A stretch of DNA of 35,633 bases, taken from positions 1 through 35,633 of the forward strand of contig JAGOLX010000059.1 of NCBI GenBank assembly GCA_017993835.1, read 5' to 3'. How positions within the stretch are numbered: position 1 is the first letter of the stretch; every line of letters starts with the position of its first letter. The notes beneath the pieces are model-generated. The model was not told where the DNA came from. It saw only the letters and a program-made list of their open reading frames with translations, and did no database searches. Source of the DNA: Phycisphaerae bacterium. GTDB lineage: Bacteria > Planctomycetota > Phycisphaerae > Sedimentisphaerales > Anaerobacaceae. Positions 5,124 to 35,633 of this stretch are shown here, piece after piece. A program made the position numbers and the translations under genes.

Positions 5124-5125
5124 GA

Positions 5126-16464: not shown

Positions 16465-16471
16465 GAAGAGG

Positions 16472-19583: not shown

Positions 19584-19607
19584 GGCAGTGTCACTTCTCA
19601 GTGGAGA

Positions 19608-19700
19608 TCAGGCTTCTTCGGTTTCAAGTTGCTTGAGCTGCTTCTCCGTCTCTGGCGAGAGCCTCACAAGGGTCTCGGTTTCGTCGGTGAGTTCCGCCAT
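19608..19700 (-). CDS. 30-residue peptide frame upstream of a caspase gene, or tail of the preceding frame
   Basis: ATG 19700 opens 30 codons ending TGA, 24 bp before the caspase start at 19583. The peptide begins MAELTDETETLVRL and is very acidic. It is in the same frame as the FGE-truncated caspase at 19746-21194, 15 codons after that gene's TGA, so it may instead be the severed tail of that protein. A similar 24-codon frame, beginning LAELTEEQ and containing LCPEIEKK, sits upstream of the caspase at 34766, with about 10 of 22 positions identical. That recurrence argues it is more than chance. Confidence 0.4.
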   Translation of the reverse strand: MAELTDETETLVRLSPETEKQLKQLETEEA

Positions 19701-19745
19701 TCTTGAGTACGTCTCCAATACTCTGACGAGTCGCTTCACGGTCCA

Positions 19746-21194
19746 TCAGTCTGCCAATTCGATCTTCGGCAACCGGCGCTTCACACCCGCTCTCTTTCCT
19801 GACTTGCGACAAAACGCAACAGCATCGTCCCATGATACCGTCTCAACCGGACGATCACCTCCTTTGAAATGGCTTGGCCTATTCTGCATCGCTGCCTCCC
19901 ACTGCGCCTGGGTTGCCTCATAGATCCCCATGTAGAAGCCCTTTATCCGCTTGACTCGACGCTGCGGTCCCTCATTGATGCCCCGGCCCTTCTCCTTGTT
20001 GGGGCTGCCCATCAGGGACTCCCCAGGGGGTATGAAGATCATTTCCATGGTCACACCCCAACTCAGGCACATCGACTTCTTCAGCGGTACGCCCAGAGCC
20101 TCAGCCGCAGCACGCTGCACTTCCTGAGCCTGCTCCGGCGTCATAGGGAAAGGTGCCTCTATGATTTCTATCTTTGGGTCCTTCGTTGGGAGTCCGGGGC
20201 GATTGAATGCAGCCTGAGACGATTGGTTTTGCTGTTTCCTCCCCGCCGGTGTAGTGGCACACTTATAGCAGCACTGCCATCCCTCTACGAGGTGGTCCTG
20301 GCACAGATGGTCAAGCTTACAGATCTGGCATGTGCGTGTCTCCTCAATACCATTCTGCACCCCACACAGCGGACATAGGACTTGCGTACGTCGCTCAGCA
20401 GACCGTGACAAGTCTACTGTTGTTTCCTTTCTTGCGCACGGTGGGACCCTATCAATGTGCAGAGGGGGTTCCCCCACCCCAGTTGTCCCGGAGCTGACGA
20501 CAAGCCGCTCCGTCCTGCCCAGGGGGCCGTCCCACCAGGGGGACTGGCGGATGGCTCGCTTGTTCTGGGTACACCACTGGCTCATCAGGTCGGCGGTGTT
20601 GTCCGCCCAGTCGAAGGCAGACAGGGAGCCGCAGTGCTCCCACAGGTATGTCAGCAGCGAATGGGTCAGGAGGCCGCAGCCCAACTCCTGGAACTCGTGG
20701 CCGACCTGGTCGAGGCCGCAGCCGTAGATGACCTCGACGCGCCGAGTCCCCTGGCATACAGCCTTGATATCGCGCAAGGAAGGATCGTCGAGGCCGCCGC
20801 CCCGGACGCCCTCGCTGCGGCAGGCGTCTAGAATCGCCAATACGTGGTCGTATTCGAAATTGCGTCGCCACAGACGCGAGAGATCACCGAGCGACAGCAT
20901 GCCGTAGCTGCTGGCGTCGGTGTCGCAGAGGTACAGGTAGTAGTGATCCCCCAGGTGTCGGTCATGACCGGCGCAGATGAAGACGAACAGATCGCCCCGC
21001 CCGGCGCTGCGCACGGCCTTTTCAATGTTCGTCCGGGTCGCCCGCGAGCCCGTCAATACGTCAGGTTTGACGCCGCAGCGATCCTCCATCAGTCGAGCCA
21101 TCGCCTCTGCGTCGGCCTCTGCATACAGTAGGGACCCGAGCTCGCCGTAGTCGCGAGGGTCGTTGACACCGATGAAGACACCACTACTTGCCAT
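19746..21194 (-). CDS. Caspase-like (C14) peptidase with zinc finger and truncated FGE domain
   Basis: 482 aa from ATG 21194, with GAGG 9 nt upstream. The caspase-like domain covers about 1-235. It has the Cys motif ILDACRS (Cys125), but the His motif reads CAGHDRH (His77) where GHG is usual. A Cys-rich segment (CPLCG, CQICK, then CQDH and CCYKC, about 275-315) should bind zinc. The N-terminal half of an FGE-sulfatase/C-type-lectin domain follows (about 385-480; 'MEMIFIPPGESLMGS', 'YEATQAQWEAAM', 'PVETVSWDDAVAFC'). The frame stops at TGA just after 'RRLPKIE', where the family has 'RLPTEAEWE' and another 150 or so residues, so the lectin domain is cut. The TGA is followed in frame by an acidic tail. 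It may be damaged. Confidence 0.83.
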   Translation of the reverse strand: MASSGVFIGVNDPRDYGELGSLLYAEADAEAMARLMEDRCGVKPDVLTGSRATRTNIEKAVRSAGRGDLFVFICAGHDRHLGDHYYLYLCDTDASSYGMLSLGDLSRLWRRNFEYDHVLAILDACRSEGVRGGGLDDPSLRDIKAVCQGTRRVEVIYGCGLDQVGHEFQELGCGLLTHSLLTYLWEHCGSLSAFDWADNTADLMSQWCTQNKRAIRQSPWWDGPLGRTERLVVSSGTTGVGEPPLHIDRVPPCARKETTVDLSRSAERRTQVLCPLCGVQNGIEETRTCQICKLDHLCQDHLVEGWQCCYKCATTPAGRKQQNQSSQAAFNRPGLPTKDPKIEIIEAPFPMTPEQAQEVQRAAAEALGVPLKKSMCLSWGVTMEMIFIPPGESLMGSPNKEKGRGINEGPQRRVKRIKGFYMGIYEATQAQWEAAMQNRPSHFKGGDRPVETVSWDDAVAFCRKSGKRAGVKRRLPKIELAD

Positions 21195-22584: not shown

Positions 22585-23247
22585 TCATATCCTCTCATCG
22601 AATATCGAATCCAGCCTGGCATTCACCTCGTGTTTCATCCTATAGATAATCACGGATACCGTAGTCAAGGGCATATTGAACCTCTCGGCGATTTCTCTGT
22701 GCATGTATCCCTGCAGATAGAGACAGAAGATCTCCGCCTTTTCTTTCTTGTAGGACTTCAGAATATCGTTGAGGATTCCCGCCAGTTCCCTGGCGTAGAC
22801 CTCCGACAGCGTGTCGTGGAAGCCGGCGATGACTTCCCGCAGGTCCTCCCCCGACATGTCGCCGTCGGCGGGAGTGGGGTCCAGAGCGACCTCGCGGCGC
22901 GCTCTACGTCGTCGCTCGTGATAGTGGTTGATGGCACGGTGAAATACGCTCGCGAACAGGTACTTGTGCCAGGATTCGATCTTCAGAAGCTCCTCGCTGG
23001 GTAGACGCCAAAGCGCGAGAACGACGTTCTGAACAATATCGTCTATATCCGCGTCCTGGATTCCATGTTTCGTAGCGAGAATGCGGGCGAGTTTGTACGT
23101 GAGAAGCCGGACTTGCCGCCACAATTCCTGTGCTGCTCCCTCATCACCGTTGAGAGCTTCATCGGATAGACAACGCAGCCGCAGATCTGCCTCTTCTCTT
23201 CGAGGATCCGGCACCATCCCCTTCTTTGCCTCCCGAGGTTTCGACAT
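22585..23247 (-). CDS. ECF-type RNA polymerase sigma factor
   Basis: 220 aa from ATG 23247, with AGAGG upstream; an in-frame TTG at 23355 is less likely. Sigma region 2 lies at about 30-115 ('WRQVRLLTYKLARILATKHG', 'DADIDDIVQNVVLALWRLP', 'WHKYLFASVFHRAINHY'). Region 4 lies at about 150-215, with the helix-turn-helix 'HREIAERFNMPLTTVSVIIY'. Region 3 is absent, as in ECF factors. It is the first gene of the leftward train and faces the rightward train across a 440-bp gap, so it is well placed to drive both. A transmembrane anti-sigma gene is not adjacent, and the immediate neighbours are the unknown 210-aa protein and the DUF4384 protein. This arrangement is like other caspase-linked sigma operons. 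Confidence 0.93.
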   Translation of the reverse strand: MSKPREAKKGMVPDPRREEADLRLRCLSDEALNGDEGAAQELWRQVRLLTYKLARILATKHGIQDADIDDIVQNVVLALWRLPSEELLKIESWHKYLFASVFHRAINHYHERRRRARREVALDPTPADGDMSGEDLREVIAGFHDTLSEVYARELAGILNDILKSYKKEKAEIFCLYLQGYMHREIAERFNMPLTTVSVIIYRMKHEVNARLDSIFDERI

Positions 23248-23303
23248 GGCTGAAGACCTCTTCACATACACAGGTTGTTGAAGACACCGTGAACTCCTGA
23301 GGA

Positions 23304-23331
23304 TATCATACCGCCTTGCGGCGGGAATGCA
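23304..23331 (-). promoter_or_regulatory. Possible promoter of the sigma-factor operon
   Basis: On the minus strand, TTGCAT (23331-23326) and TATGAT (23309-23304) are separated by 16 bp, 57 bp before the sigma-factor ATG. The -35 match is weak and the -10 match good. A perfect inverted repeat fills most of the spacer, which would suit an operator. Assignment is by pattern only. Confidence 0.35.
23310..23323. promoter_or_regulatory. Inverted repeat CCGCC-TTGC-GGCGG in the promoter spacer
   Basis: A perfect 5-bp palindromic arm pair with a 4-base loop sits between the candidate -35 and -10 elements of the sigma operon. It may be a protein-binding operator or a short hairpin. Being short, it could also be chance. 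Confidence 0.35.
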
Positions 23332-23455
23332 ATTACCACCTTCGGGGGAGCTCAATGAGAAGGCCGCATTCCCCGGAGGTAATGTGTTAACATACTGCTG
23401 TCAAAGGACTTAAAGAACGGCTGGGGCCGGGCACACCCAGAACGTAAGTGGTTGC

Positions 23456-23484
23456 TTGAGAATCTCCCCTCCTCGTGGTATAGT
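23456..23484 (+). promoter_or_regulatory. Possible sigma-70-type promoter of the rightward train
   Basis: TTGAGA and TATAGT, each matching the consensus in five of six bases, are separated by exactly 17 bp, about 205 bp upstream of the first rightward gene. The rest of the 23248-23689 gap holds no open frame I can support. It is the only long non-coding stretch in the window and separates the two divergent trains. Confidence 0.45.
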
Positions 23485-23689: not shown

Positions 23690-25336
23690 ATGGAGGTCAT
23701 CCTCAAGAAGATTGAGCCCATTCCAGTCCGGATGGGTTTTGCGGATCTGCCGAAGCGGGGGTGGAGGAAGCCCCGACATCTTTCCCTCAGGTCCGATCAA
23801 GTCGCTCTGTCGGCGAATGGCCAAAGGGTCGAATTCCATGCCTCCGGCGGAGAGCACACAATCGACCTCGAACTTCGTCCAGACATGTACGCTCTCGTCG
23901 TAAGCCGGGAGATCGACTTATCCCTGGATCTGCCCGAGTGTCAGTTCGCAAATGGAACAGGCAGGCTTACGCTGTGGGCCTCCGCCAGATTTCTCTCCCC
24001 GACTGCCGATCCGGCCTTGCACCCGATTGTCCAGGGCATCACGGGAGTACTCGATGAGAACACCTTTCGAGAGGCCCTTGAACACTGTCTCTCCAAAGGA
24101 CTTGCCAAACCCCTGAACGAAATTCTCCACCAGACGTCCTACGAGTCTGGCTCCAGGCGGCTTATGTGTATTTCGGAGGCTCTCTCGGGATTTGTCCGGA
24201 GATCAGACGTACAGAAGACCCTGCTGTCCGATGCCGGTCTGGAGCTGGTACGTGACATAGAACCGCTGGAGGCTGCCTGTTCGAGACAGGATGAGGCGCA
24301 TGACCGACAGGAAGCCGCACGCAGGTGGCGAGAAGACGAGAGACATGCAGCTGAGAAGAAGCTAACAGAAATGAACATGGCCGAGGCCGTCAAGAGGGCT
24401 AAGAGCCAGGTCCAAGTCCAAGAAATACTCGATGAAGCGGAAAGGGAGAAGGCCGAGCTCGTCCGCCGACGAATCGTCCTGGATGGGCAGCTTGAGGCAC
24501 ACCGTGCCCAGGTATCAATGGAGACCGAGGAACTAAGGCTTGCCCTTCAACACAAAGCCGTGGAGAAGGCAGAGCAAGAGGTCGAACTCGTTCGCGCCAG
24601 GATCAACGCCAAACGGCAGAGTCAGGAGGCCGTGACTCGATTATTGACAGGCCAGCAAGCTTTGCAGGAACAGATCGATCAGTTTGCCCATCTGATCAAG
24701 GCCCTCTCGCACAAAGCGAGTTCCCCCTGGGAGATTGAAAGACCGCTGGCTCTCGTGGCCACGTGGAGAGCTTACCGTAGAACACAAACTGACAACTCCA
24801 TGCCCGTGCTGTTCCGGCCGGCGATTCAGAACGGGACGCGACTACCCAGCGGAACATGGTTGGATCTGTCTGCTACCGTGTCGCACGACGCCTATATATA
24901 CGTCCTTGTGAAAAGCTCGAACGGCCTTTGGCAGTGTCTGGTCCCCGATGCGGATCGCATCATGGGCGGCTTGACCCGTCCGAATCGGCAGCCTGCCAAT
25001 CAGCAGGTTGTCTGGCCGGGTACGAACAGCAATGCAGTCCCCGCAGGCCACGAGAACATCCCGTACTGGAGACTCGATGACGCTGTTGGCTGGGAGCATG
25101 TCCTCGTCGCAGCATCGGTGACGGAGATCGATATAAAGGGGCTTCTCAACCAGGATGAAACCCTCCAGGACCTTCGCTCACGAGGGGTGCCCCTGCTAAG
25201 CCGAGGATTTGCTTCGGGTGGCTCAATTCGAAGGTCGCGTGTACCAGTCGCGATTGGGCCAGACATGCGAGAGACAAGGAATTGCCTCGTTGGCGACGGG
25301 TGCGTAGTGGATGAGATCGTAATCGAACACTATTGA
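23690..25336 (+). CDS. SPFH/band-7-like coiled-coil protein with C-terminal DUF4384-like domain
   Basis: 548 aa from ATG 23690, with AAAGGAG upstream. The N-terminal ~200 residues ('ELRPDMYALVVSREIDLSL', then 'ENTFREALEHCLSKGL', then 'SDAGLELVRDIEPLEA') follow the SPFH/band-7 pattern, in which a beta region is followed by helices and a 'GlELv.I..I' strand. A long charged coiled coil (about 200-345) follows, as in flotillins and prohibitins. Residues of about 384-475 resemble DUF4384 ('LPSGTWLDLSATVSHDAYI', then 'VLVKSSNGLWQCLVPDA'). There is no N-terminal transmembrane helix. SPFH proteins organise membrane patches and recruit proteases. As the first gene of the rightward train it may be the membrane platform for the ESCRT-like proteins. 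The SPFH assignment is by pattern. Confidence 0.75.
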   Translation: MEVILKKIEPIPVRMGFADLPKRGWRKPRHLSLRSDQVALSANGQRVEFHASGGEHTIDLELRPDMYALVVSREIDLSLDLPECQFANGTGRLTLWASARFLSPTADPALHPIVQGITGVLDENTFREALEHCLSKGLAKPLNEILHQTSYESGSRRLMCISEALSGFVRRSDVQKTLLSDAGLELVRDIEPLEAACSRQDEAHDRQEAARRWREDERHAAEKKLTEMNMAEAVKRAKSQVQVQEILDEAEREKAELVRRRIVLDGQLEAHRAQVSMETEELRLALQHKAVEKAEQEVELVRARINAKRQSQEAVTRLLTGQQALQEQIDQFAHLIKALSHKASSPWEIERPLALVATWRAYRRTQTDNSMPVLFRPAIQNGTRLPSGTWLDLSATVSHDAYIYVLVKSSNGLWQCLVPDADRIMGGLTRPNRQPANQQVVWPGTNSNAVPAGHENIPYWRLDDAVGWEHVLVAASVTEIDIKGLLNQDETLQDLRSRGVPLLSRGFASGGSIRRSRVPVAIGPDMRETRNCLVGDGCVVDEIVIEHY

Positions 25337-25364
25337 CAGTACTGCAGTTCGGGAGCAGCTTCCT

Positions 25365-25712
25365 ATGGGAGCGCCGATGAAGACGGAAAATATGATGGCC
25401 TTGATCAAAGACCCGAGACTATCTGTCCGGGCAGATGAACGCGAAGAATTACTGGGCCAAGTCATGGAGCAGAATTGGGACTTCGAGTGCCCCGAGGTGG
25501 TCATCATGCTGGCAAGAGACATCGATCCCATGCAGCCGGGTGGCGAGTGTGGCCTTCCGCGAGTTTTGCAGGGCGCATCCTGGAGTCGCCCGGTGGTGGG
25601 CCTCGGCTGCGTAGCTGTGATGAGGTTACGGCTGGCAGACCTCCTTGAAGTTCTGTCATGTGAATACGTTGACAGAATTGAGGGTCGCGACAACTATCAT
25701 CCGTTGGAGTAA
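25365..25712 (+). CDS. Small unknown protein
   Basis: 115 aa from ATG 25365; an internal ATG at 25377 also has GGGAG upstream, so the start is uncertain by four codons. It is mostly helical, with no signal, membrane or metal motif. It contains 'DPRLSVRADEREELLGQVM' and 'CPEVVIMLARDIDP'. It sits 28 bp after the SPFH-like gene and 34 bp before the subtilase, so it is co-transcribed. It may be a protease inhibitor, adaptor or substrate of the following subtilisin, but nothing in the sequence shows this. Confidence 0.65.
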   Translation: MGAPMKTENMMALIKDPRLSVRADEREELLGQVMEQNWDFECPEVVIMLARDIDPMQPGGECGLPRVLQGASWSRPVVGLGCVAVMRLRLADLLEVLSCEYVDRIEGRDNYHPLE

Positions 25713-25746
25713 GCCGGAGAAGTACCTGCTGTGTTGAGAGGAATCT

Positions 25747-28113
25747 ATGAGTTGTGTCATTGAGGAGAGTCTAACGAGGGGATTCCAGGGGTTCCGAGAC
25801 GCCGTGTTGCGTGGCGATTTGGATTCCGTTGAGCGCTTGGGGTATTCGGACGAGCGTGTACCTGGTGTCGTGAAGCCTCGCCTGGAGGCATTGAAGCCAC
25901 TGATGTCGCTCCGTGTCGATGCGTACAGTAGCATCGGGTCGGCGCTTGAATCGCTAGCCGAGGCACTGCCGCCGTGCTACTGGTATCCGGTGATCCTTGT
26001 CTTTTCTGGGGCCCAGGACCGGGCGAGGGCCCAGGAGCAGCTTGCTGCAACGGGGGTGCCTCTGGACGATTCCGGCCGGGGCCGCTACTTGAAGCATGTC
26101 AACATGATCCGCGTGCCTGTCCCTCCGATTCATAGTGCGTTGGACTGGCTCTGTAGATTCGAAGGGGTCGTCCTTCTGGGGGACGGATCCCGACGTATCA
26201 CCGTGCCACCCCTGCCGGGGCTGACCATTCAGATGCCAGTCGGCCCGTGGCAGGCCATGAATATACTGATGATAGGTTCCCAGGGGAGATCCTTCGATAT
26301 CAACCGGCTCAAGCAGTCTGTGCGTGTGGCCATCATTGACACGGGTATCGACGCGGAACACCCTGCTTTTGACGGGGTCGTGGAGAGACAAGTGGATCTG
26401 GCCCAGACGGGTCTTGGGCCAGTGGACCCGGTCGGCCATGGCACATACGTCGCAGGCATCATTGCGGGAAGACCGCCCGAGGGCCGACCCGAGCTTTCTG
26501 GGGTTGCCCCGTTCGCGAGTCTCGTGGATCTGCAGGTGTGGACCCCGTCGGGGCTCCCGTTGGATGTCCTCCTGGACGCCGTGGGGGCGGCCATTGAGGA
26601 ACGGGTTGATGTGCTGAATATTAGTCTCGGTGGGCATGAGGCCACGACGGGCAAGTCGATCTTGTCGATGGCTGTCCAGAGTGCGGCCCAACACGGCATC
26701 ATATGCTGTGTCGCGGCGGGCAACGATGGGGACACAGAATACAGGAGAATCAGTACCCCTGGTGATGCACCGGACGCCATCATGGTGGCCGCCACGACCC
26801 TCGATGGCAGAAGAGCAGAATTCAGCAGTATGGGCCCATCCGACAATCCCGAATACACGGGCCCCAAACCCAATGTCGCCGCCCCGGGCTGCGGAGTCAT
26901 CTCGGCGCGATCCCAATTCAGCATGGCAGAAGCCGTTGGTCCAGACTGCCGCTATGCGGTCATGCATGGCACGTCGGTAGCAACGCCTATGATCGCCGGC
27001 GTGGCGGCTCTCGGGATCGCTGCACTCCACATGACAGGTAAGGGAATTGACGGAATTGACGGCGTACGGCGGTTCCGCAGCGTCTTGGCAGCGAGTTGCC
27101 GGGACATGTTCTCGGAGGGGGGGGATTCTGTCGGGGCCGGTATTCCACAACTTCCGGTATTGTTGGACAATCTGGGTTGCCCGTTCGATGACATCACCGG
27201 CCGGTTCTCTGCTGTCCACGTGCCGCTTTCTCCATCCGCCCAACTGGCATCTTCCCAATCCCACCCAGCCGTTGATGCATCGACGAGGGACGAAACGCGT
27301 GGCTTGAATTGGGAAGGCTATCGGGATACCGAGCAGCGCTTCATTGCCGCAATCCGCTGCAACGTTCAGCAGCACACCCGGGACATGGTGCGCGAGTTGG
27401 CAGGAACTGAAAGCCTTCCAGTATCTGATGATATGATTGAGTTGCGAAATGAGGCGATGGCTATCCGGACCGAAGCAATCCGCGCCGGGGTCGAGTTCGA
27501 GGATCGCGCGCTTCCGGACAACAGCGAGCTGTGGATCACGATCCGGGGAAGGAAGTTCATGGGCGCGAGGCCGGTCTTCTATCTGGGCATCAAGAGCATC
27601 GCCGCATGGATGGCCTTCAAGGATCTCGGCAAGATGACTTGGGGCCACATCGCCCAGAAGATCTCTGATTATACAACTCGTCAGCGCAAAGAAGCGGGAG
27701 AGACACCGTGCGCGTTCGTCCTGTTCTCCCCCAAGCCCTGGGATCCGGAGGTCGTGGCGAGTTCGCCCTCCGATGCAAGGGCCCCGCTCTTCTGGTGTTT
27801 CCACACGGAGACGGGTCAAAACGGATCCTGGTTCTCTCTGGAGAACCGCGATGTCGGCTGGCACACTTGGAAGGCTCTTACGCCGATGACAGAGCAATTC
27901 CGACTGCAATGGTGTCGAGATCGTCTTCTGGAACAGACAGAATTACTGATTCCCGGAGGCATCATTGCACTGGATGATCTCGCCGTGGGTCTAGGTCTTT
28001 CCGAGACGGTGACAGAACACCTTGTCCAGGAAATTGAGAAGCAGGGCCGCGGACAATTCCTGCTGGAATCCGGGTCAAGCGGCAAACAATATGTCCAGCG
28101 TGCAGGAGTATGA
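25747..28113 (+). CDS. Subtilisin-like serine peptidase (S8), cytoplasmic type
   Basis: 788 aa from ATG 25747, with AGAGG 6 nt upstream. The catalytic triad is complete: Asp198 (VAIIDTG), His231 (GHGTYVAGIIAG) and Ser410 (HGTSVATPMIAGVAAL), with the oxyanion Asn326 in AAGND. No signal peptide precedes it. Residues of about 1-185 form an unrelated N-terminal region that may include a propeptide-like fold (about 55-165). The catalytic domain ends near 470. A C-terminal region of about 300 aa contains a beta-rich segment (about 555-690) and a winged-helix-like end ('LDDLAVGLGLSETVTEHLVQ'). Most S8 peptidases are secreted, so the lack of a signal suggests an intracellular target or autoproteolytic switch. 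It is 3 bp from the next gene and in the same operon as the ESCRT-like proteins and caspases. Confidence 0.95.
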   Translation: MSCVIEESLTRGFQGFRDAVLRGDLDSVERLGYSDERVPGVVKPRLEALKPLMSLRVDAYSSIGSALESLAEALPPCYWYPVILVFSGAQDRARAQEQLAATGVPLDDSGRGRYLKHVNMIRVPVPPIHSALDWLCRFEGVVLLGDGSRRITVPPLPGLTIQMPVGPWQAMNILMIGSQGRSFDINRLKQSVRVAIIDTGIDAEHPAFDGVVERQVDLAQTGLGPVDPVGHGTYVAGIIAGRPPEGRPELSGVAPFASLVDLQVWTPSGLPLDVLLDAVGAAIEERVDVLNISLGGHEATTGKSILSMAVQSAAQHGIICCVAAGNDGDTEYRRISTPGDAPDAIMVAATTLDGRRAEFSSMGPSDNPEYTGPKPNVAAPGCGVISARSQFSMAEAVGPDCRYAVMHGTSVATPMIAGVAALGIAALHMTGKGIDGIDGVRRFRSVLAASCRDMFSEGGDSVGAGIPQLPVLLDNLGCPFDDITGRFSAVHVPLSPSAQLASSQSHPAVDASTRDETRGLNWEGYRDTEQRFIAAIRCNVQQHTRDMVRELAGTESLPVSDDMIELRNEAMAIRTEAIRAGVEFEDRALPDNSELWITIRGRKFMGARPVFYLGIKSIAAWMAFKDLGKMTWGHIAQKISDYTTRQRKEAGETPCAFVLFSPKPWDPEVVASSPSDARAPLFWCFHTETGQNGSWFSLENRDVGWHTWKALTPMTEQFRLQWCRDRLLEQTELLIPGGIIALDDLAVGLGLSETVTEHLVQEIEKQGRGQFLLESGSSGKQYVQRAGV

Positions 28114-28116
28114 GAG

Positions 28117-28695
28117 ATGGGACAATGGCTTAGGCGGATCTTGGAGTTGTTGAGAATCCTTGATAGGAACAGTGGAAACAGTGAGGATACTCCCATCTCT
28201 GCAGAGGAGTGGAAGGCCAAACTATCTGCCCTGCAGCAGGACGAGTACGAGTACTCGAAGCGATTGGCCAATCTTGACATCGCCCGTGAGCAGCTCAAGA
28301 AGCGACTGGACGATGCGCAGGCGAGGGGCGAAAAGGACTTCCAGCTCGATCGCTATCGGCACCTGTACAAGGAGGCTGACGCCAACTTCGAGACCTTGCG
28401 GCGGCAGGTCGACGGGATCCGGACGAACGTATCCAGGCTCGCGGACCTCGTACGCATGTGGGAAGAGAAGTTGCGGGCCGGATTGGTGATCGACCCGGAG
28501 CAGTATCATCGTGAGGCCAGAGAGCTGTACACTGCTATTCAGACTCGGCAGGAGCAACTCCGAGAGATAGAAGTCTCGCGGTCCGTACTTGCAGAGACTC
28601 GGGACACAGCCTTCAACGGTGGACCTGTTTCCTCAGACGAGTTTAAGGTCGACCTTGGCGAGGTCACGAAAGACAAGGCTCCGGAAGTGGAGTGA
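28117..28695 (+). CDS. Coiled-coil protein linked to the subtilase and ESCRT-like genes
   Basis: 192 aa, with GGAG 8 nt before ATG 28117 and the subtilase stop 3 bp away. An amphipathic N-terminal helix ('GQWLRRILELLRIL') leads to an almost wholly helical, heptad-rich body (about 28-160). An acidic tail follows ('DEFKVDLGEVTKD'). The amphipathic start followed by long helices is the general shape of PspA/ESCRT-III-type proteins, like the next gene, so it could be a distant third member. Sequence similarity is too weak to claim this. A linker or regulator of the membrane module is the simplest guess. Confidence 0.78.
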   Translation: MGQWLRRILELLRILDRNSGNSEDTPISAEEWKAKLSALQQDEYEYSKRLANLDIAREQLKKRLDDAQARGEKDFQLDRYRHLYKEADANFETLRRQVDGIRTNVSRLADLVRMWEEKLRAGLVIDPEQYHREARELYTAIQTRQEQLREIEVSRSVLAETRDTAFNGGPVSSDEFKVDLGEVTKDKAPEVE

Positions 28696-28818
28696 ATATC
28701 TTGGTGAGAATGGCACACTGAATTGGCCCGATCTCGTGAAAGAATGGGGCCGTGGTTGTGGTCCTGGAGTATAGCGAAACGGAACACCAACGATCGACAG
28801 ATACTTAGGGGTGAAACG

Positions 28819-29481
28819 ATGGCACAGGAAAGCAACTCTTTACTGGGAAGAATCGCAGGTCTGTTCAGCGGGAAGGTCGACGTCGAGAAGCTTAAGAGAG
28901 AGCTCAAAACCCAGAGTCGGGATATTGAGAAGCAGATGCTCGGTGTTGAATTCGACATGAGGGCCAAAGAGGCCCAACGAGACGAGGCCATCCGCAGGGG
29001 TGTGGAGGCTGCTAGACAAGGCAGGACGGTGGAGAAGCAGAAGTGCGCCATGCGGATCCAGATCGTGAACACCCATCTGGAGCAGATGAGGCAGGGCTAT
29101 GCCATGATGGCAAAGACCCAGTGTGTGGCGGAATTGGCCAAGATGCAGCTCGAAATGGCCACCCCCGGAGGAGCGCTCGATGCAGTGAAGAGACTTCAGA
29201 TTCTGCTGGCTGGCAAGGAGCTGGGTGGGATCTTAACTGATACCCAACTGGACTACGAGACATTCCAGCGGGAGGCCGCCAAGCTCTTTCACAGCGTTAC
29301 GGGCCAGATCGAGGCAGGTGACGTCGTGACACTCACTACCGATAACCCCTACGTCAACCTCCTGGATGAACTGGCTCAGGCAGAAGTCAAAGGAGATGCG
29401 GACGGTGCAAAGATGGTGCGTGAGAAGATGCTTCGCCCCGCCAAAGAACAGTCAGGATTCGATTCGCTACTGGACCTCTAA
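28819..29481 (+). CDS. ESCRT-III/PspA-like helical membrane-remodelling protein (copy A)
   Basis: 220 aa from ATG 28819, preceded by AGGGGTGAAACG; an in-frame start at 28723 has no ribosome binding site. An amphipathic start ('LLGRIAGLFSG') leads to a long basic helical hairpin ('VEKLKRELKTQSRDIEKQML', then 'EAIRRGVEAARQG', then 'MRIQIVNTHLEQMRQGYAMM'), then further helices and an acidic C-terminus. This is the shape of the ESCRT-III/PspA/Vipp1 superfamily, whose members polymerise on membranes. The next gene is a Vps4-like ATPase, the very partner that remodels ESCRT-III polymers in archaea and eukaryotes. That context is the main support, and the fold call needs profile comparison. It is about 80 bp from the ATPase gene. 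Confidence 0.75.
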   Translation: MAQESNSLLGRIAGLFSGKVDVEKLKRELKTQSRDIEKQMLGVEFDMRAKEAQRDEAIRRGVEAARQGRTVEKQKCAMRIQIVNTHLEQMRQGYAMMAKTQCVAELAKMQLEMATPGGALDAVKRLQILLAGKELGGILTDTQLDYETFQREAAKLFHSVTGQIEAGDVVTLTTDNPYVNLLDELAQAEVKGDADGAKMVREKMLRPAKEQSGFDSLLDL

Positions 29482-29562
29482 GTCAGACATCGTTGAACAC
29501 TGAAGACACGCGAAACGGCCAGAGATTCGTATCTTCACGGGCAGATATGGAGCATAGGGAAG

Positions 29563-30756
29563 ATGTTGGGCGAACAGATATATGTCGATCAGTTGCGGCG
29601 GAAAGCCCATGAAGGACTCGATGAGGCCGAGCGCAGGGAGATGGCAGGCGACTTGACCGGGGCCGCTCAAGCATATCGTCAGGTCGCCGTGATGATTCGC
29701 CAGATGGCTGAGAAGGTCATTGTGGCTGACGATCGGGTCCGGCTCTTCGGCAAGGCAAACCAGATCGACCAGAAGGCGGATCTCCTCGAAAAAGGTAAAA
29801 AGGTGGCCGCCGATGCAGCAGATCGCCACAAGGGCGTTCTGGCAGCTGAGGATGAGTACAAAGCGTCTGTCGATGAACTCATCTTTCGGTCGACGGTAAC
29901 TTGGGACGACATTGGGGGGATGGAGGAACTCAAGGGTTCGTTGAAATACGCCATGGGACTGGCCATAGCCAAACAACCCGATGGTGTGCGACTGGACAGT
30001 CCGTCGCGATTCCTGCTCTACGGTCCCCCGGGGACAGGGAAGACTCTTCTGGCTGCGGCGTGTTCGAATATGCTCGGCGCGACCTTCTTTAACGTCAAGG
30101 CATCCGATCTACTGAGCAAGTATTTCGGTGAATCGACCAAATTGATTTCCGCCTTGTATGCGCGAGCTCGTAGTGAGGCCGACGTAGGCGCCTCCTTGAT
30201 CTTCATCGATGAGTTTGAATCTCTCTGCCGTAAGAGCAGCGGTGATGATTCCGGCGCAGAACGGCGGATTCTGTCTACATTTCTGGCGGAGTTGGATGGG
30301 TTAGAGGAGAAAGGCCAGGTGACGAAGGTCATCACAATCGCGGCAACGAATCACCCCTGGGACATCTCTGAGCCCGTCCTGCAGCGTTTCGAGAAGCAGT
30401 TCCTGGTGGATTTGCCGGATGAGAAGTCGCGAGAAACGATCTTCCGGATTCATATCGCGGGCAAGGGACTCAGTCTGGCTGGTGACGTTGGCTATGCTAT
30501 CCTGGCGAAGAGGACGCAAGGTTCTTCCGGCCGCAGCATTCAGCATGTCTGCAAAGACGCCGTCGAGACGATGGTCCGTGATATGAATCGGGATCTTGCT
30601 AACAGGGTGGATACCCGATCGATCGGCGACCACACGATTAAGTACCGATCCCTGACTGCAGCGGACTTCGAGGGTCCTTTGTGTAAAGCCCGTCCCCGAA
30701 TGAAGCAGGAGGACGTTCTGAAGTATCGGACGTGGGCCCAGGAGTGCGGGGGATAA
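29563..30756 (+). CDS. Vps4/katanin-like AAA ATPase with MIT-like N-terminus (copy A)
   Basis: 397 aa from ATG 29563, with AGGGA close upstream. Residues 8-80 form a three-helix MIT-like region ('AERREMAGDLTGAAQAYRQV', then 'LFGKANQIDQKADLLEKGK'). The AAA domain follows: Walker A GPPGTGKT (154-161), pore loop SKYFGEST (185-192), Walker B LIFIDE (212-217) and sensor-1 ATN (261-263). The stretch 'NHPWDISEPVLQRFEKQFLV' is close to the Vps4/katanin/spastin clade ('ATN.PW.LD.A..RRF.KRIYI.LP'). It is not like MoxR or ClpX. Vps4 uses MIT to bind ESCRT-III tails and ATP to strip or remodel the polymer. The flanking ESCRT-III-like genes fit that role. Confidence 0.9.
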   Translation: MLGEQIYVDQLRRKAHEGLDEAERREMAGDLTGAAQAYRQVAVMIRQMAEKVIVADDRVRLFGKANQIDQKADLLEKGKKVAADAADRHKGVLAAEDEYKASVDELIFRSTVTWDDIGGMEELKGSLKYAMGLAIAKQPDGVRLDSPSRFLLYGPPGTGKTLLAAACSNMLGATFFNVKASDLLSKYFGESTKLISALYARARSEADVGASLIFIDEFESLCRKSSGDDSGAERRILSTFLAELDGLEEKGQVTKVITIAATNHPWDISEPVLQRFEKQFLVDLPDEKSRETIFRIHIAGKGLSLAGDVGYAILAKRTQGSSGRSIQHVCKDAVETMVRDMNRDLANRVDTRSIGDHTIKYRSLTAADFEGPLCKARPRMKQEDVLKYRTWAQECGG

Positions 30757-30802
30757 GGCTTGGCCGGCAGGCTGGTAGCATGTGGAAGACACGAGGATTG
30801 AT

Positions 30803-31429
30803 ATGGGCATGTTGACTTGGCTCACAGGAGACTTCATGAAGCTGTTCAAGACACAAGAGGAACGCCGCATCGAGCGGAACATCCAGGTGCAGAAAACGCT
30901 GGGGCTGTTTGTATCGCGGATCAGGAAACTCAGGAAGGAGGAGGTAGGCTACCTCAACGCTGCGGTGGAGGCCAAGCGCGTCAAAGGAGCTCAACAACTG
31001 GAGCTGGCGAAAAGGGCTTTCAAAGAGACCCTCGCCCAGCGACGCCGACTGGATCACCAGCTGCTTACCCTCAAGATTGCCGTGCAAATGAAAGAGCAGG
31101 CCGAGTCTCAGGTTTCCTTCGCTGAAGCGCTCCAGAACGTCAGCAGGACGATCTCCGACATGTTTACCGCCACGAACATGGCGGAAGTCCAAAAGCAGTT
31201 TGAAATGGCGATGGCCAAGGCCAGGTCGATCGAGGAACGTACCGACCTGTTCCTGTCCAGCGCATCGACAACGATGTTTGGCGAATCGCTTGGGGCGGAT
31301 GAGATCGTAACAGATGCAGAAATCGACAGGCTCGTCGATTCCGCAGCTGCAGAGGCAGAGAATGCCACGGATGCGCAGATCGATGCCGGCATGGATGAGA
31401 TCAAGAGGGAACTGGCGAAGGGCGAATGA
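30803..31429 (+). CDS. ESCRT-III-like helical protein (copy B)
   Basis: 208 aa from ATG 30803, with GAGG 6 nt upstream; a GTG at 30782 is less likely. A hydrophobic/amphipathic start ('MLTWLTGDFMKLFK') leads to a basic long-helix hairpin (about 18-100; 'EERRIERNIQVQKTLGLFVS', 'KRVKGAQQLELAKRAFKETL'). A CHMP-like middle follows ('ALQNVSRTISDMFTAT', 'MAEVQKQFEMAMAKARSIEE'). The C-terminus is acidic with helical ends ('DAEIDRLVDSAAAEAE', 'MDEIKRELAKGE') that could serve as a MIT-interacting tail. This basic-to-acidic, five-helix shape is that of eukaryotic and archaeal ESCRT-III. Its stop overlaps the next ATPase start by 4 bp (ATGA), so the two are translationally coupled, as expected for partners. 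Confidence 0.8.
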   Translation: MGMLTWLTGDFMKLFKTQEERRIERNIQVQKTLGLFVSRIRKLRKEEVGYLNAAVEAKRVKGAQQLELAKRAFKETLAQRRRLDHQLLTLKIAVQMKEQAESQVSFAEALQNVSRTISDMFTATNMAEVQKQFEMAMAKARSIEERTDLFLSSASTTMFGESLGADEIVTDAEIDRLVDSAAAEAENATDAQIDAGMDEIKRELAKGE

Positions 31430-32538
31430 ACCAGCAATTGTCCACAGACTTGTACCGGAGGCACTATACACGGGGCATTGCAGAGTATCGCCGCGGCAAC
31501 ATGGCTGTGGCGAGACAATGCCTCCTGAAAGCTTCCGAAGTACTCTTCCAGATGGCCTCTGCAACCAGTGGCCCCCTCCGAGAGGCCCGCAAGGTCAAGG
31601 CCCGGCAAATGCTGGACTTTGCCAAGTCGATAAGAAACGATCCCCAGCCGGGCGTGCGCCGCGCGGCAACCCTGGACGAAGAGTCGTCCGAAGGCCAGAG
31701 CAAGGGCGATCTGTGGATTGTCACAGAGCTTCCGGTCGTGAGGTGGGATGATGTGGCGGGCCTGGAGGATGTTAAGGCGGTTATCCGTAAGAGGGTAGTA
31801 TACCCTTTTCAGAACCCAACAGTGACAAAGAAGTATCGGAAACGAATCGGAGGCGGGGTACTCCTTTACGGGCCCCCAGGCACCGGCAAAACGATGATTG
31901 CCAGGGCCATTGCCAACGAAGTCGGCGCGACCTTCTTCTCCGTGCGGTGCAGCGACATCATCAGTAAATGGGTGGGCGAAGCTGAGCGCAATCTCAAAGA
32001 GCTGTTCGCGACTGCACGCTCACGGCCTCGCTCTGTGGTCTTCATGGACGAGACTGAGGCATTGGTTCCCCGGCGGGGTGGGAATTCCACAGTCATGAAC
32101 CGGGTGATTGCCGAGTTCCTGGGGCAGATGGATGGGATTCAGGGACGCGATCAGGGCATCCTGCTCCTGGGGGCAACCAATCGACCGTGGGACATGGACG
32201 AGGCTGCATTGCGGCCTGGACGCTTCAGCGAGTTGATCTATGTTCCTCTTCCGGACTTCGCGGCACGCAGGCAGATCATGGCTCTGTCACTTGACGGGAT
32301 TCCGCTGGCCGAGGACGTCGACTTGGATGAGATCGCTCGGCAGACCGAAGGTTATAGTGGAGCAGATCTCGCCGACGGAGTGTGTGAAGAGGCGAAGGAC
32401 GGGCCATATGAACGAGAGATTGCCTCAGGCATTCTTCAGAGGCTGGAGGCGTCTGACCTCGAACGGGCAATCGCCAAGGTCCGTCCCTCAGTCAGGAATG
32501 ACCGTCTGGAGCAGTACAAGCTGTTTCGGCGACGATAG
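31426..32538 (+). CDS. Vps4-like AAA ATPase with MIT-like N-terminus (copy B)
   Basis: 370 aa; ATG 31426 overlaps the stop of the ESCRT-III-like gene. The N-terminal ~70 residues are three helices of MIT type ('GIAEYRRGNMAVARQCLLKA', then 'REARKVKARQMLDFAKSIR'). The AAA domain has Walker A GPPGTGKT (149-156), pore loop SKWVGEAE (180-187), Walker B VVFMDE (204-209) and sensor ATNRPWDMD (250-258). The region after the sensor reads 'AALRPGRF', closer to Cdc48/FtsH-type AAA domains than copy A, so the two ATPases have clearly diverged and may serve different polymers. It probably works on copy B of the ESCRT-III-like protein. Confidence 0.9.
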   Translation: MNQQLSTDLYRRHYTRGIAEYRRGNMAVARQCLLKASEVLFQMASATSGPLREARKVKARQMLDFAKSIRNDPQPGVRRAATLDEESSEGQSKGDLWIVTELPVVRWDDVAGLEDVKAVIRKRVVYPFQNPTVTKKYRKRIGGGVLLYGPPGTGKTMIARAIANEVGATFFSVRCSDIISKWVGEAERNLKELFATARSRPRSVVFMDETEALVPRRGGNSTVMNRVIAEFLGQMDGIQGRDQGILLLGATNRPWDMDEAALRPGRFSELIYVPLPDFAARRQIMALSLDGIPLAEDVDLDEIARQTEGYSGADLADGVCEEAKDGPYEREIASGILQRLEASDLERAIAKVRPSVRNDRLEQYKLFRRR

Positions 32539-32540
32539 TG

Positions 32541-32822
32541 ATGTGGTTTGGTGTTCCTGAATACGGGCTACCACATATGGGAACTGACGATCAGTGTGCA
32601 TTTTATGGACGTCTGGCTTCCTTCGACGTCAAACGGAAGCATCATGTTTCTGAGCACCAGGAGGAATGTGTTCATACTACCGCGGGTACGTTCCTGGCTT
32701 GGCTGTTGGTCAGAGCAGCGGTGGACTCCTGGTGGACGGTCATGGTCTTCATCCTGGCGGTTGCTGGTGTATTCGCCCATAACACCCGTATCATAATGTT
32801 CGCATTGAGGCTGGAGACATGA
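32541..32822 (+). pseudogene. Frameshifted fragment of the CsgG/FlgO-like membrane protein
   Basis: The open frame ends with two transmembrane helices and '...HNTRIIMFALRLET'. It aligns without gaps over the last 48 residues to the membrane protein at 16472-17413 ('YNAKIMTMALRPES'), with about one third identity by eye. The part before it does not match in this frame, but a neighbouring frame (32575-32690) reads 'STSNGSIMFLSTRRN', similar to 'DTASGTTVFSRRY' of the other copy. The N-terminal half is missing. The end overlaps the caspase start by 4 bp, so translational coupling to the caspase may be why this piece persists. Confidence 0.65.
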
Positions 32823-33817
32823 AGCGGTTTGCACTACTCATTGGTATTAATGGTTATAGACCACTATCGGGCCTGATGCCGCTGAAGTATGCGGAAGCCG
32901 ATGCTGCCGCTCTGGCGGACCTCCTCAGCGAGCAATGTGGCTTCGAGACAACGACCCTCCTGGGGCAACAAGCGACTCGGGATGCAATCGAGGAGTCACT
33001 GTTTTCTGCTGGCCAGGGAGACATCTTTCTGTTCTTCTTTGCTGGGCACGGCCAGATGCTCTCCGGCCAGTACAAATTACATCCGGTTGACAGTACCGCC
33101 AGCGGGTTGCGGAGTCTGTCCTTTCCTGAATTAACGCGTCACTGGCAGTGTGAGCTCGGATATGAACGAGTTCTGGCGATCATCGATGCCTGCCGTAGCG
33201 AGATGTGCGGCGTCCGTGGTTCACGCGGATTCGAACCAGCAGCGTCCCGGGACATCAGCACATCAATTCAGGGTAATAAATGGATCGAGGTTCTTTACGG
33301 TTGCTTGGAAGGACAGGTCAGCTACGAGGTGGATGACTTCGGCCACGGTCTCATGACTAGGGCACTCATGGAGATCATCGGTAATCCACCAGGCGAGCTG
33401 GATACGAATACCCTGTCCGGAGCGGCCGCAGACTGGATGCGAGCCTGGTCAAGAAGTGATCAACAAGCGCGGTTCCAGGAAGTCTCCCGGTATCACAGAC
33501 CATCCTTGACCGAGAGGATAATATTGCGATCTTCTCTCGATGAGATCCATCCTCCGAGGCTGGTTTCCCTGCACAGTGGTGTCGGCTCTGATACGCAGCC
33601 GGCTATTCGGCCAAAGACAAAGCCTGAATCACAAGGCGTGACCACGACTGGCACAGACACGAAGCGGGATCCCCGTGTTCCAGGCCAGACGCCTCATCCG
33701 AGGCCAGAGTTGGGTGCCAAGCCGCCCAAAGGGTGGAATCCTGGAGGAGTTGCCAAGAGAACGCAGAAACGGCTCAATGGACCTGACCCGTTTCCAGGAA
33801 ACAAGCCCAGTGTATGA
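32819..33817 (+). CDS. Caspase-like (C14) peptidase with a disordered tail ending in a PPKGW motif
   Basis: 332 aa; ATG 32819 overlaps the preceding frame (ATGA). The caspase-like domain (about 1-245) is complete: MKRFALLIGI, FFFAGHG (His77) and IIDACRS (Cys125). It is closest to the caspase at 19746-21194: 'RVLAIIDACRSE' here against 'HVLAILDACRSE' there, and 'IEVLYGCLEGQVSYE' against 'VEVIYGCGLDQVGHE'. The tail (about 250-332) is rich in Pro, Lys and Thr and looks disordered. Near the end is 'GAKPPKGWNPGG'. The next protein ends in 'GCEPPKGWKGR', so the short motif is shared. No signal peptide or membrane segment. Probably the active protease, or a zymogen cleaved in the tail, of the rightward train. 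Confidence 0.92.
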   Translation: MKRFALLIGINGYRPLSGLMPLKYAEADAAALADLLSEQCGFETTTLLGQQATRDAIEESLFSAGQGDIFLFFFAGHGQMLSGQYKLHPVDSTASGLRSLSFPELTRHWQCELGYERVLAIIDACRSEMCGVRGSRGFEPAASRDISTSIQGNKWIEVLYGCLEGQVSYEVDDFGHGLMTRALMEIIGNPPGELDTNTLSGAAADWMRAWSRSDQQARFQEVSRYHRPSLTERIILRSSLDEIHPPRLVSLHSGVGSDTQPAIRPKTKPESQGVTTTGTDTKRDPRVPGQTPHPRPELGAKPPKGWNPGGVAKRTQKRLNGPDPFPGNKPSV

Positions 33818-33873: not shown

Positions 33874-34614
33874 ATGAAAGAAGGTCTATTTGAATTCAGT
33901 GTTTGGGTTGACGGCCGTCCTGTGCCTGAGCACTTGGACGGGGTAGGGGGCATTACATGGATCCAGGGGGTCAGAGAACAAGAGTTTGCACTCCATGTGC
34001 AGAACGCCACCAATAATCGCGTTCTTGCGGTGGTGAGTGTCGATGGTTTGTCGGTCATGGATGGCAAACCAGCGAATTATAGCTCGGGTGGGTACATTCT
34101 CTCCGGAGGCTCGCATATTCTGATTCCTGGGTGGCGTCTGGATAACAACAGTGTCGCGAGATTTGAGTTCGGGGTCTCTGCTGAAGGCTACGCTACACTG
34201 ATGAACCAGTCGCCCAGGAACATTGGCGTCATAGCATGCGCCTTTTTCGCAGAAGCACCAACGGTTACAGACATAGACTCAGGGGATATGCTTGCGTCCC
34301 GCCGTATCGACTCCCCAGCATCCCGTGAGATGGGCTCCTTAGCATCCCGCGTGACGGACTTGCTCGCGTCCCATGACAGCTCAGGCACAAGCAAGTCTTC
34401 GACAAGACCAGGGGTAGAGACGACCACGGACAACATCGCTGTGAAGTTCGGCGAAAAAGCCACGCACAAAGTAGTCGTAGGTTCCTTTGAACGTGCATCA
34501 GACAAGCCGGAAGCCCTGCTATCTGTACGCTATGACACAGTCGATGGCCTGAGGGCTCGTGGGATCGGCTGCGAGCCGCCAAAAGGCTGGAAGGGTAGGT
34601 TCTCACGCCGATAG
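33874..34614 (+). CDS. Beta-rich protein of unknown function with minisatellite linker and PPKGW tail
   Basis: 246 aa with an ideal AGGAGGTGACAA before ATG 33874. The N-terminal ~130 residues form a beta-rich domain: 'FSVWVDGRPVPEH', then 'FALHVQNATNNRVLAVVSVD', then 'GLSVMDGKPANYSSGGYIL', then 'PGWRLDNNSVARFEFG'. I have the impression of a widespread bacterial family of unknown function with this 'VDGL.V.DGKPA...GY.L' pattern, but cannot name it. A repeat linker (about 139-170) and a Thr/Lys-rich segment lead to a C-terminus with 'EPPKGWKGRFSRR'. The shared PPKGW motif with the upstream caspase suggests that both bind the same partner or are processed alike. It could be a substrate or cofactor of the caspases. 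Confidence 0.8.
   Translation: MKEGLFEFSVWVDGRPVPEHLDGVGGITWIQGVREQEFALHVQNATNNRVLAVVSVDGLSVMDGKPANYSSGGYILSGGSHILIPGWRLDNNSVARFEFGVSAEGYATLMNQSPRNIGVIACAFFAEAPTVTDIDSGDMLASRRIDSPASREMGSLASRVTDLLASHDSSGTSKSSTRPGVETTTDNIAVKFGEKATHKVVVGSFERASDKPEALLSVRYDTVDGLRARGIGCEPPKGWKGRFSRR
34288..34383 (+). repeat. 24-bp in-frame minisatellite, about four units
   Basis: Four successive 24-bp units encode MLASRRID, SPASREMG, SLASRVTD and LLASHDSS. The core GC(A/G)TCCC recurs every 24 bp. It forms a short flexible linker in the beta-rich protein and may vary in copy number between strains. Confidence 0.7.
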
Positions 34615-34727: not shown

Positions 34728-34765
34728 TCTGAGCTTGGAAAGGCCTGATGTCAAAGGCGACACAC

Positions 34766-35633
34766 ATGAAGAAGTACGCACTGGTTGTAGGAATCGGTGT
34801 TTACGACGATCCGGAAATTACGAACCTGAGCTTCGCAGCACAGGACGCACAGGATATGGCGGCGTGTCTTCGGCACGTGTGTGGATTCGAGGACGTACGT
34901 CTGTTAGTCTCTGACGGCGATCTGGAGCCGGATCATGTAAACATTGTCGATGCGTTGCACAACATTGCTCCACTTACATCGAAAGATGACCTCTTCTTGC
35001 TCTACTTTGCCGGGCATGGCATCCAAACGAGGGCTGGCACCTACCTGCTGGCATCGAATTCCCGGATCCGCATGCCGGAACTTGCATCCCTATCGATGAA
35101 TCTACTAACGGACTGCCTAGGGTATATTGAGGCCGCTAGTCGAGTGTTGATCCTGGACGCGTGCCGGAATGACCCGCATCAGGGTATGGGCGATGCAGAT
35201 AATCTCCTCACACGCGAGTTCAGTCGAGATATCATCGCCCTAGCTAAGACACCCGTGGCCGAAGTGGTGCCAGCAACTTGCGTATTGTTCTCTTGTTCAG
35301 AAGGTGAGCGGGCATGGGAGTGGCCGGATCAGAGGCACGGGGCCTTCACGCACTACCTCCTGGAGGGCATCCGAGGGGCGGCGTTCGATACACAGCGTCG
35401 TCTGACGATTCAGAGCTTGGGGCAATATGTAGAAGAGCAAGTCCGCCGATGGTCGCACAAGACTGGGAAGCCCAGACCTCAGACCCCTTGGGCCCAACAA
35501 CTAGGCTCTTTACGGCCGATTGTGTTGACTGACACGGCACCGAGCACGCAGACTGACAAGCCGGCTCCACCAGGCGAAGCCTATATCGAGGCAGCCGAGC
35601 AGGGACATGCATGGGCTCAGACCAACCTGGGGG
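34766..35633 (+). CDS. Caspase-like (C14) peptidase with Sel1 repeats, C-terminus beyond the window
   Basis: 289 codons from ATG 34766. An in-frame ATG at 34748 is possible, but MKKYALVVGI matches the start of the other caspases. The caspase-like domain is complete: YFAGHG (His84) and ILDACRN (Cys133), with the substrate-pocket region 'VLFSCSEGERAWE' conserved. A short Pro/Thr linker (about 248-268) is followed by 'EAYIEAAEQGHAWAQTNLG', the first Sel1-like repeat, so a Sel1 array probably continues to the right. Sel1 repeats are scaffolds for protein binding. No signal peptide. As the last visible gene of the rightward train it is separated from its neighbour by 151 bp, so it may also have its own promoter. 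Confidence 0.92.
   Translation, partial: MKKYALVVGIGVYDDPEITNLSFAAQDAQDMAACLRHVCGFEDVRLLVSDGDLEPDHVNIVDALHNIAPLTSKDDLFLLYFAGHGIQTRAGTYLLASNSRIRMPELASLSMNLLTDCLGYIEAASRVLILDACRNDPHQGMGDADNLLTREFSRDIIALAKTPVAEVVPATCVLFSCSEGERAWEWPDQRHGAFTHYLLEGIRGAAFDTQRRLTIQSLGQYVEEQVRRWSHKTGKPRPQTPWAQQLGSLRPIVLTDTAPSTQTDKPAPPGEAYIEAAEQGHAWAQTNLG

Follow-up and report, generated by a model that had tools for sequence, protein, structure and literature searches.

Gene content of the operon

The window analysed here is a stretch of 35,633 nucleotides (nt) on contig JAGOLX010000059.1 of a Phycisphaerae bacterium (Planctomycetota; assembly GCA_017993835.1), and its plus strand carries a run of genes with short gaps (23690–33817), reaching from a gene for a 548-amino-acid (aa) protein to a caspase gene. 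This operon very probably encodes a bacterial ESCRT (endosomal sorting complex required for transport) system, in which the helical proteins E1 and E2 would be the ESCRT-III subunits, the ATPase A1 a Vps4-type motor and the ATPase A2 a second motor. The original prediction, made from the letters alone, had placed two pairs of a helical protein and an AAA ATPase in one operon, and this was borne out: the genes are real, lie on one strand with short gaps, and both ATPases keep intact Walker motifs. The start of A2 overlaps the end of E2 by 4 nt (31426 versus 31429). The host genome (6.37 Mb, 99% complete) holds E2 in a single copy. The predicted features of the run are as follows, whereby families of the related loci are denoted by c and a number, HMM stands for hidden Markov model, ORF for open reading frame and AF2 for AlphaFold2.

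23690–25336, plus strand: first operon gene, 548 aa, a long charged coiled coil with a weak DUF4384-like C-terminus (Pfam, E 0.012)
25365–25712, plus strand: 115-aa protein (ORF and codon model), without Pfam match
25747–28113, plus strand: S8 subtilisin (residues 190–424; Pfam S8 7.5e-40) with a C-terminal region of the ESCRT-associated, winged-helix (wH)-type family c4
27313–28101, plus strand: c4 region within the S8 gene (residues 523–785; c4 HMM E 2.7e-5 to 9.9e-7; hhalign 93.9% over 255 columns)
28117–28695, plus strand: 192-aa coiled-coil protein where relatives have c3, their third helical protein (by position only)
28819–29481, plus strand: E1, ESCRT-III-like protein 1, 220 aa (assigned to family c2 by HMM, 1.1e-5)
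29563–30756, plus strand: A1, Vps4-type MIT-AAA ATPase, 397 aa (Pfam AAA 4.9e-36, Vps4_C 4e-4; tree)
29563–29847, plus strand: predicted MIT domain of A1 (AF2 three-helix bundle; match to the Vps4 MIT domain 4niq)
30782–31429, plus strand: E2, predicted ESCRT-III (Snf7/CHMP3-like) protein 2, 208–215 aa, starting at GTG 30782 or, likelier, ATG 30803 (Snf7 in orthologs, PDB profile matches, AF2)
31426–32538, plus strand: A2, second MIT-AAA ATPase, 370 aa, RPGRF-type, separate clade (Pfam AAA 8.3e-40)
32541–32822, plus strand: 93-aa ORF with one hydrophobic segment (codon-model gene call)
32819–33817, plus strand: caspase-like peptidase (C14; Pfam 3e-21; FAGHG/DACR dyad)

ESCRT-III-like proteins and MIT-ATPases

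Both its sequence relatives and its predicted fold identify E2 as an ESCRT-III relative. Pfam Snf7 matched 27 of the 34 E2 orthologs when these were scanned singly (best 3.7e-6), the next family reaching at most 3 of 34, and the first seven matches of the E2 profile among all PDB sequences were CHMP3 (5e-5), CHMP2A and yeast Snf7 (E 5e-5 to 0.4). The AF2 model of the window's E2, built on a 34-row alignment with a predicted local distance difference test (pLDDT) score of 77.9, has helices at residues 8–14, 18–59, 63–120, 126–157 and 171–207. This succession of a short N-terminal helix, helices of 42, 58 and 32 residues and a C-terminal one is the ESCRT-III helix order, and the hairpin expected by the original prediction is present in the model. 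The top ten Foldseek matches in the PDB were all CdvB2, CdvB or CHMP2A-CHMP3, with weak E-values (0.04–0.3), and 109 residues of the hairpin could be superposed on Asgard ESCRT-IIIB at 1.9 Å. In HMM-HMM comparison (hhalign) with 39 Asgard ESCRT-III proteins gathered with Pfam Snf7, E2 reached 96.4%, family c2 reached 96.5% along 192 collinear columns, and c3 reached 92%; as controls, alignments that had been shuffled or reversed, and five further families from these loci, all stayed below 6%. On these profile matches, the family to which E1 is assigned matches Asgard ESCRT-III from end to end. The 192-aa coiled coil at 28117 had been considered as an ortholog of c3 and was rejected, its comparison with c3 of the relatives giving 0.2% in hhalign and no sequence similarity.

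Walker A (GPPGTGKT) and Walker B (FIDE, FMDE) are intact in both window ATPases, and both proteins match Pfam AAA and, weakly, Vps4_C; the best NCBIfam family of A1 is CdvC, below its cut-off. Profile comparison of the N-termini with the MIT domain of Asgard Vps4 gave 91% for A1 and 78.8% for A2. The isolated N-terminus of A1 was modelled by AF2 as a three-helix bundle (pLDDT about 95 over residues 11–70), whose PDB matches were mainly MIT domains (NRBF2, yeast Vps4, MITD1, katanin), including Vps4 MIT 4niq over 82 residues at 1.5 Å (Z 11.4) and the MIT domain of Sulfolobus Vps4 (Z 11.3). The A1 N-terminus is thus predicted to fold as a Vps4 MIT domain, as had been proposed, and that of A2 resembles it at the profile level. 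In a quick maximum-likelihood tree with few outgroups, supported by the Shimodaira–Hasegawa-like approximate likelihood ratio test (SH-aLRT), A1 grouped with the Vps4 of the archaeal main clade, apart from Asgard Vps4 (SH-aLRT 97), and A2 formed its own clade (SH-aLRT 96) between Cdc48 D2 and Vps4, outside the former and beside the latter. Judged by sequence, this second MIT-ATPase clade is a new part of ESCRT loci.

Variation in the ATPases was also seen at related loci (denoted by L and a number). In A1 of L022 (7865–9043) and L023 (10588–11769), an Asp-Asp Walker B (FLDDFES) replaces Asp-Glu, so the first motor there may be slow or altered. Moreover, L068–L070 have an extra AAA-like gene (c25, 363–383 aa) before A1, and no Walker A was found in it in L068 and L069; its product is perhaps an inactive partner ATPase.

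Several observations weigh against assigning these proteins to ESCRT. Scanned singly, E2 and E1 of the window have no Pfam match (the matches among window proteins being AAA in both ATPases, S8 and caspase), and the Snf7 scores of E2 orthologs were below the Pfam cut-off in both genomes for which the cut-off was displayed. BAR and bMERB domains outrank ESCRT-III by Z in the structure comparison of E2; since BAR domains score higher, the fold match was not used alone. The E1 variants c18 and c34 alone score low versus Asgard ESCRT-III and are linked to c2 at 85–89% (hhalign). The tail of E2 is conserved and acidic and ends in an amphipathic helix, with no strict fit to MIT-interacting motif 1 (MIM1) when judged by eye, and the ESCRT-III C-terminal tails are, again by eye, helical and acidic and outside the strict MIM1 pattern. 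Finally, the sequence search of the ATPase N-termini with Pfam MIT gave no match.

A rival possibility is that the helical proteins are not ESCRT proper, but PspA-type or other coiled coils beside generic AAA ATPases. PspA (4whe) does superpose on E2 (105 residues, 3.0 Å, Z 8.7), and BAR domains do so with higher scores. However, PF04012 (PspA_IM30) was not among the matches of 34 E2 and 19 E1-type members at E 0.1, whereas Snf7 was found in 27 of those 34; the PDB sequence matches are CHMP/Snf7, the adjoining ATPase has a predicted MIT domain, and direct archaeal counterparts exist. PspA and Vipp1, the bacterial members of the ESCRT-III superfamily, share the superfamily fold but as a rule come without a Vps4/MIT partner, and this explanation is very unlikely.

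Distribution and archaeal counterparts

E2 was found in 3 of 148 near relatives and, in a 392-genome sample of the phylum, in 56, some of the positive contigs reaching 2.45 Mb. The PLA46 site of 16S rRNA in four of the sampled genomes (two with 0 mismatches, two with one) points to Planctomycetota as the phylum; a 16S search of the window's own genome gave none, so its placement by 16S is through these kin. Genes in 42 neighbourhoods of E2 were called with a codon model and clustered, and gene order was counted in the 28 loci with at least 6 kb on each side of E2, for genes on the same strand within 10 kb. A near-invariant order emerged: wH-type protein (c4), helical protein (c3), E1, Vps4-type ATPase, E2. 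The c4 and E1-type genes were present in all 28 loci, c3 in 27, A1 in 25, an SPFH gene in 15, A2 in 14, and c19 and a Ser/Thr kinase in 10 each. The ESCRT-III/Vps4 linkage is hence conserved (E1 28/28, A1 25/28), with the wH-type protein, the SPFH protein and the kinase as conserved partners of the core. The full order, for example in L066, is c4, c3, E1, A1, E2, A2, SPFH-type protein, c19, kinase. The order therefore recurs in dozens of genomes and is not unique to this contig. None of the three refuting conditions named in the original prediction (hairpin fold, MIT fold, gene order) came true, and its central claim, a bacterial ESCRT-III/Vps4-type operon with two MIT-ATPases, stands. Its label of an SPFH-like protein for the first operon gene was not confirmed: relatives do carry SPFH genes (their label rests on HMM similarity, 1.6e-15, to the L022 protein, which has Band_7 at 7e-13), but 23690–25336 gave no Band_7 (PF01145) match in Pfam and less than 2% in hhalign against those proteins.

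Archaeal contamination of bacterial assemblies is an extremely improbable source of these genes. It could be suspected from the closest contig match, filed under a methanogen metagenome-assembled genome (MAG), but that contig looks chimeric, and the spread over 56 of the 392 phylum genomes, the contigs of up to 2.45 Mb, the related operon on a circular Chloroflexota plasmid, and the ECF sigma factor and caspase-FGE genes that surround the operon in the window all speak for a bacterial host. In the contig concerned (L004, Methanoregulaceae MAG, 2523–5442), an archaeal CDC48 gene continues from its second Walker A onward as a copy of A1 (81% identity), with E2 (87%) after it; the contig is most likely an assembly chimera. 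A mobile origin was considered as well and rejected, E2 being absent from PLSDB plasmids and from IMG/VR, although a PLSDB search with A1 did find the related operon on the Chloroflexota plasmid (Candidatus Chlorohelix, 45% identity), together with a Thermococcus plasmid.

Outside the phylum, the E1 profile was positive in 2 of 400 Chloroflexota genomes and in none of 299 Bacillota genomes, the latter a weak negative, as no Bacillota positive is known. The genes of the Thermococcus locus encode, in order, a 607-aa coiled coil, proteins of 198 and 201 aa, a kinase, Vps4, PP2C and a 188-aa protein. The E1-type HMM matches its 198-aa protein (3e-35), the E2 HMM the 188-aa protein near Vps4 (6.5e-21), and the c4-type HMM the 607-aa protein (about 7.6e-9 to 9e-9) as well as a 663-aa protein of L005 (2e-8). 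The circular Chlorohelix plasmid carries an E1-type protein, Vps4, kinases, PP2C and a c4-like protein, and in a second Chloroflexota genome a single gene run comprises c4, E1, A1, two SPFH-like proteins and a kinase. Since two Chloroflexota and the Thermococcus plasmid share this gene set, the window system is placed as a bacterial branch of the archaeal "main clade" of ESCRT. In a Chloroflexota locus (L152, 108–1322), the c4 homolog opens with what looks by eye like an excisionase/MerR-type helix-turn-helix, which hints at a DNA or regulatory link.

The archaeal main clade (Makarova et al., 2024, PMC10936438; e.g., Thermococcus peptonophilus plasmid NZ_CP014751) shares with the planctomycete loci an MIT-Vps4, two to three ESCRT-III-like proteins, an upstream c4-homologous coiled coil and a Ser/Thr kinase, with direct homology of E1, E2, c4 and A1. 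Its upstream arCOG09748-type protein has a C-terminal wH; by the HMM matches, c4 is a candidate counterpart of this protein, with a putative wH. The window differs in being bacterial and in having the A2 clade, a subtilisin-c4 fusion and a coupled caspase; no kinase or phosphatase was found beside its operon, and no kinase within the window. A Ser/Thr kinase and PP2C belong to many but not all main-clade loci: both occur in Thermococcus and Chlorohelix, and a kinase in 10 of the 28 planctomycete loci. The "Meth_adaptin" loci of archaea (PMC10936438) combine ESCRT-III, Vps4 and an SPFH protein with zinc ribbons, as do L022 and L023; no adaptin-type proteins were seen here, and no search was aimed at them. 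That survey confined Vps4 + ESCRT-III systems to archaea and eukaryotes. Another study (PMC11237479) described archaeal-type Vps4 that moved into bacteria, where a TPR/6TM gene reportedly displaced snf7; the planctomycete loci share the archaeal-type Vps4 but keep ESCRT-III. The bacterial Snf7 homologs with a transmembrane segment described there, beside AAA+ ATPases and transporters, represent a different gene set. No report of the present system was found in the published literature searched, preprints lying outside the search. The original prediction had known of no named system with this content: the second ATPase and the protease fusion are indeed new, but most of the core already has its counterpart in the archaeal main clade. 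Overall, the system is of a kind already known and previously thought absent from bacteria, forming a bacterial branch with new parts.

The ESCRT-III and Vps4 families are shared also with the Cdv system of Thermoproteota (CdvA/CdvB/CdvC), whose CdvB2 and CdvB are among the best Foldseek matches of E2; no CdvA was recognised here. ESCRT-III/Vps4 divide crenarchaeal cells. A division machine replacing FtsZ, like Cdv in Sulfolobales, might be imagined here, given that FtsZ (TIGR00065) was missing from all 40 ESCRT-positive genomes tested and was not detected in the window's genome. However, when 40 ESCRT-negative genomes from the phylum were tested, 36 lacked it as well and the remaining 4 gave weak scores below the cut-off, and most phylum genomes are without E2, so the system is neither needed for FtsZ loss nor explains it. 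Moreover, kinases, SPFH proteins and proteases are not division partners. As FtsZ is lacking in ESCRT-positive and ESCRT-negative planctomycetes alike, co-occurrence lends a division role no support, and it is quite improbable.

Protease genes and proposed function

The S8 protease claimed upstream of the ESCRT genes is present, with the catalytic motifs DTGI at residue 198, HGTYVAG at 231 and GTSVATP at 408, and the downstream caspases are genuine too. In most relatives c4 is a separate gene, while in the window it forms the C-terminus of the subtilisin. The 93-aa ORF, missed in the original prediction, starts 2 nt past A2 and shares 4 nt (ATGA) with the start of the caspase gene; by adjoining the one and overlapping the other, it makes it probable that the caspase belongs to the same operon. 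Its product is possibly a membrane anchor, to judge from the hydrophobic segment. The fusion of a subtilisin with the wH-type c4 protein and the coupled caspase appear, at sequence level, as a new arrangement seen in the window only. Hence the proposed tie to proteases holds locally but fails as a general trait, since none of the other loci examined has the subtilisin, and just one of them has caspases (with the window, 2/43 loci).

The remaining features of the window lie on both sides of this run.

33874–34614, plus strand: 246-aa protein (ORF), without family match in Pfam
34748–35632, plus strand: second caspase-like gene, truncated where the window ends, with FAGHG + DACR and similar to the caspase at 32819
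16472–17515, minus strand: c19 homolog; in related ESCRT loci, c19 adjoins genes for SPFH proteins and kinases
22585–23355, minus strand: ECF-type sigma factor, divergent from the operon (Pfam Sigma70_r4_2 1.8e-4, Sigma70_ECF 6e-4)

Upstream of the operon, a sigma-70-like promoter with an extended -10 was noted at 23456–23484 (TTGAGA-17-TATAGT, 10/12); such sites are no commoner in the region than by chance. The Rfam scan of the window gave no RNA. The minus strand at 9845–21194 holds a caspase gene cluster, in which three of the caspases carry FGE-sulfatase-like domains as fusions. Diversity-generating retroelements are reported elsewhere to target related putative conflict proteins (PMC10907252).

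The pairing of an AAA ATPase with an S8 protease recalls the anti-phage system IetAS, in which case the helical proteins would be incidental. In PADLOC, A1 and A2 match IetA (6e-28 and 3e-32) and the S8 protein matches IetS (4e-17), but the NCBIfam scores are far below the curated cut-offs (91.3 and 109.8 versus 510 bits; 47.5 versus 900 bits), and CdvC and CDC48 match better. MIT and ESCRT-III are not known to be part of IetAS, and here both are conserved in loci without an S8 gene. With the core kept where the subtilisin is absent, this explanation is already contradicted and highly improbable. A broader possibility is that the ESCRT core is real but serves immunity as a conflict or cell-death module, the subtilisin-wH protein and the caspases being the effectors and ESCRT either delivering or limiting the membrane insult. 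The coupled caspase and the subtilisin in the window, the caspase-FGE genes in the window and in L022, the patchy distribution (3 of 148 near relatives), the PADLOC matches to caspase and subtilase models, and the caspase-rich conflict systems described in multicellular bacteria (PMC7159879, PMC8195603) are all in its favor. As opposed to this, most loci have no protease genes, the conserved core lacks an effector, and the PADLOC matches amount to generic AAA, S8 and caspase similarity. A conflict role is possible in the window lineage but not general, and it is unlikely to account for the system.

Returning to a bacterial ESCRT system, the analysis established homology, the predicted folds of E2 and the MIT domain, gene order, distribution and the kinship with archaeal loci, and from these its working may be pictured by analogy with known ESCRT machines. 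E1 and E2 would assemble into polymers at the cytoplasmic membrane, on its inner face, by means of the N-terminal amphipathic helix and the helix 1–2/3 hairpin. A hexamer of A1 would then grip the acidic helical ESCRT-III tails with its MIT domains and extract subunits from the filament, whereby A2, of a distinct clade, probably works on a different subunit or at a different stage. Nucleation of the filament would fall to the wH-type c4 region, the archaeal counterpart of which has been likened to ESCRT-II. Because this region is fused here to a cytoplasmic subtilisin, filament assembly or disassembly may be coupled to proteolysis, with a translationally coupled caspase downstream. The likeliest task would be membrane repair or budding under the control of a signal, to which this lineage would have added a proteolytic output for stress or cell death. 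PspA (PF04012) was not detected in the window's genome nor in 8 of 11 ESCRT-positive genomes tested, which, on a count taken among ESCRT-positive genomes, might fit a membrane-stress role.

The widespread planctomycete operon of conserved order and the rarer Chloroflexota copies contradict the absence of such systems from bacteria (PMC10936438). The operon would give bacteria an ATP-driven ESCRT beyond PspA/Vipp1. Planctomycetes are known for unusual internal membranes and for lacking FtsZ, and the operon offers a simple system for asking about ESCRT roles other than those in cell division and endosomes. Both the second MIT-ATPase and the fusion of the subtilisin with the wH-type protein are new designs open to testing. 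A tentative proposal, somewhat doubtful as a whole, is that bacteria have a complete regulated ESCRT with two MIT-ATPases, of which A2 would be an unrecognised second disassembly motor, and that in some lineages the fusion of an ESCRT-II-like nucleator to a subtilisin, together with a caspase, may let polymer turnover gate, or be gated by, a proteolytic cell-fate switch.

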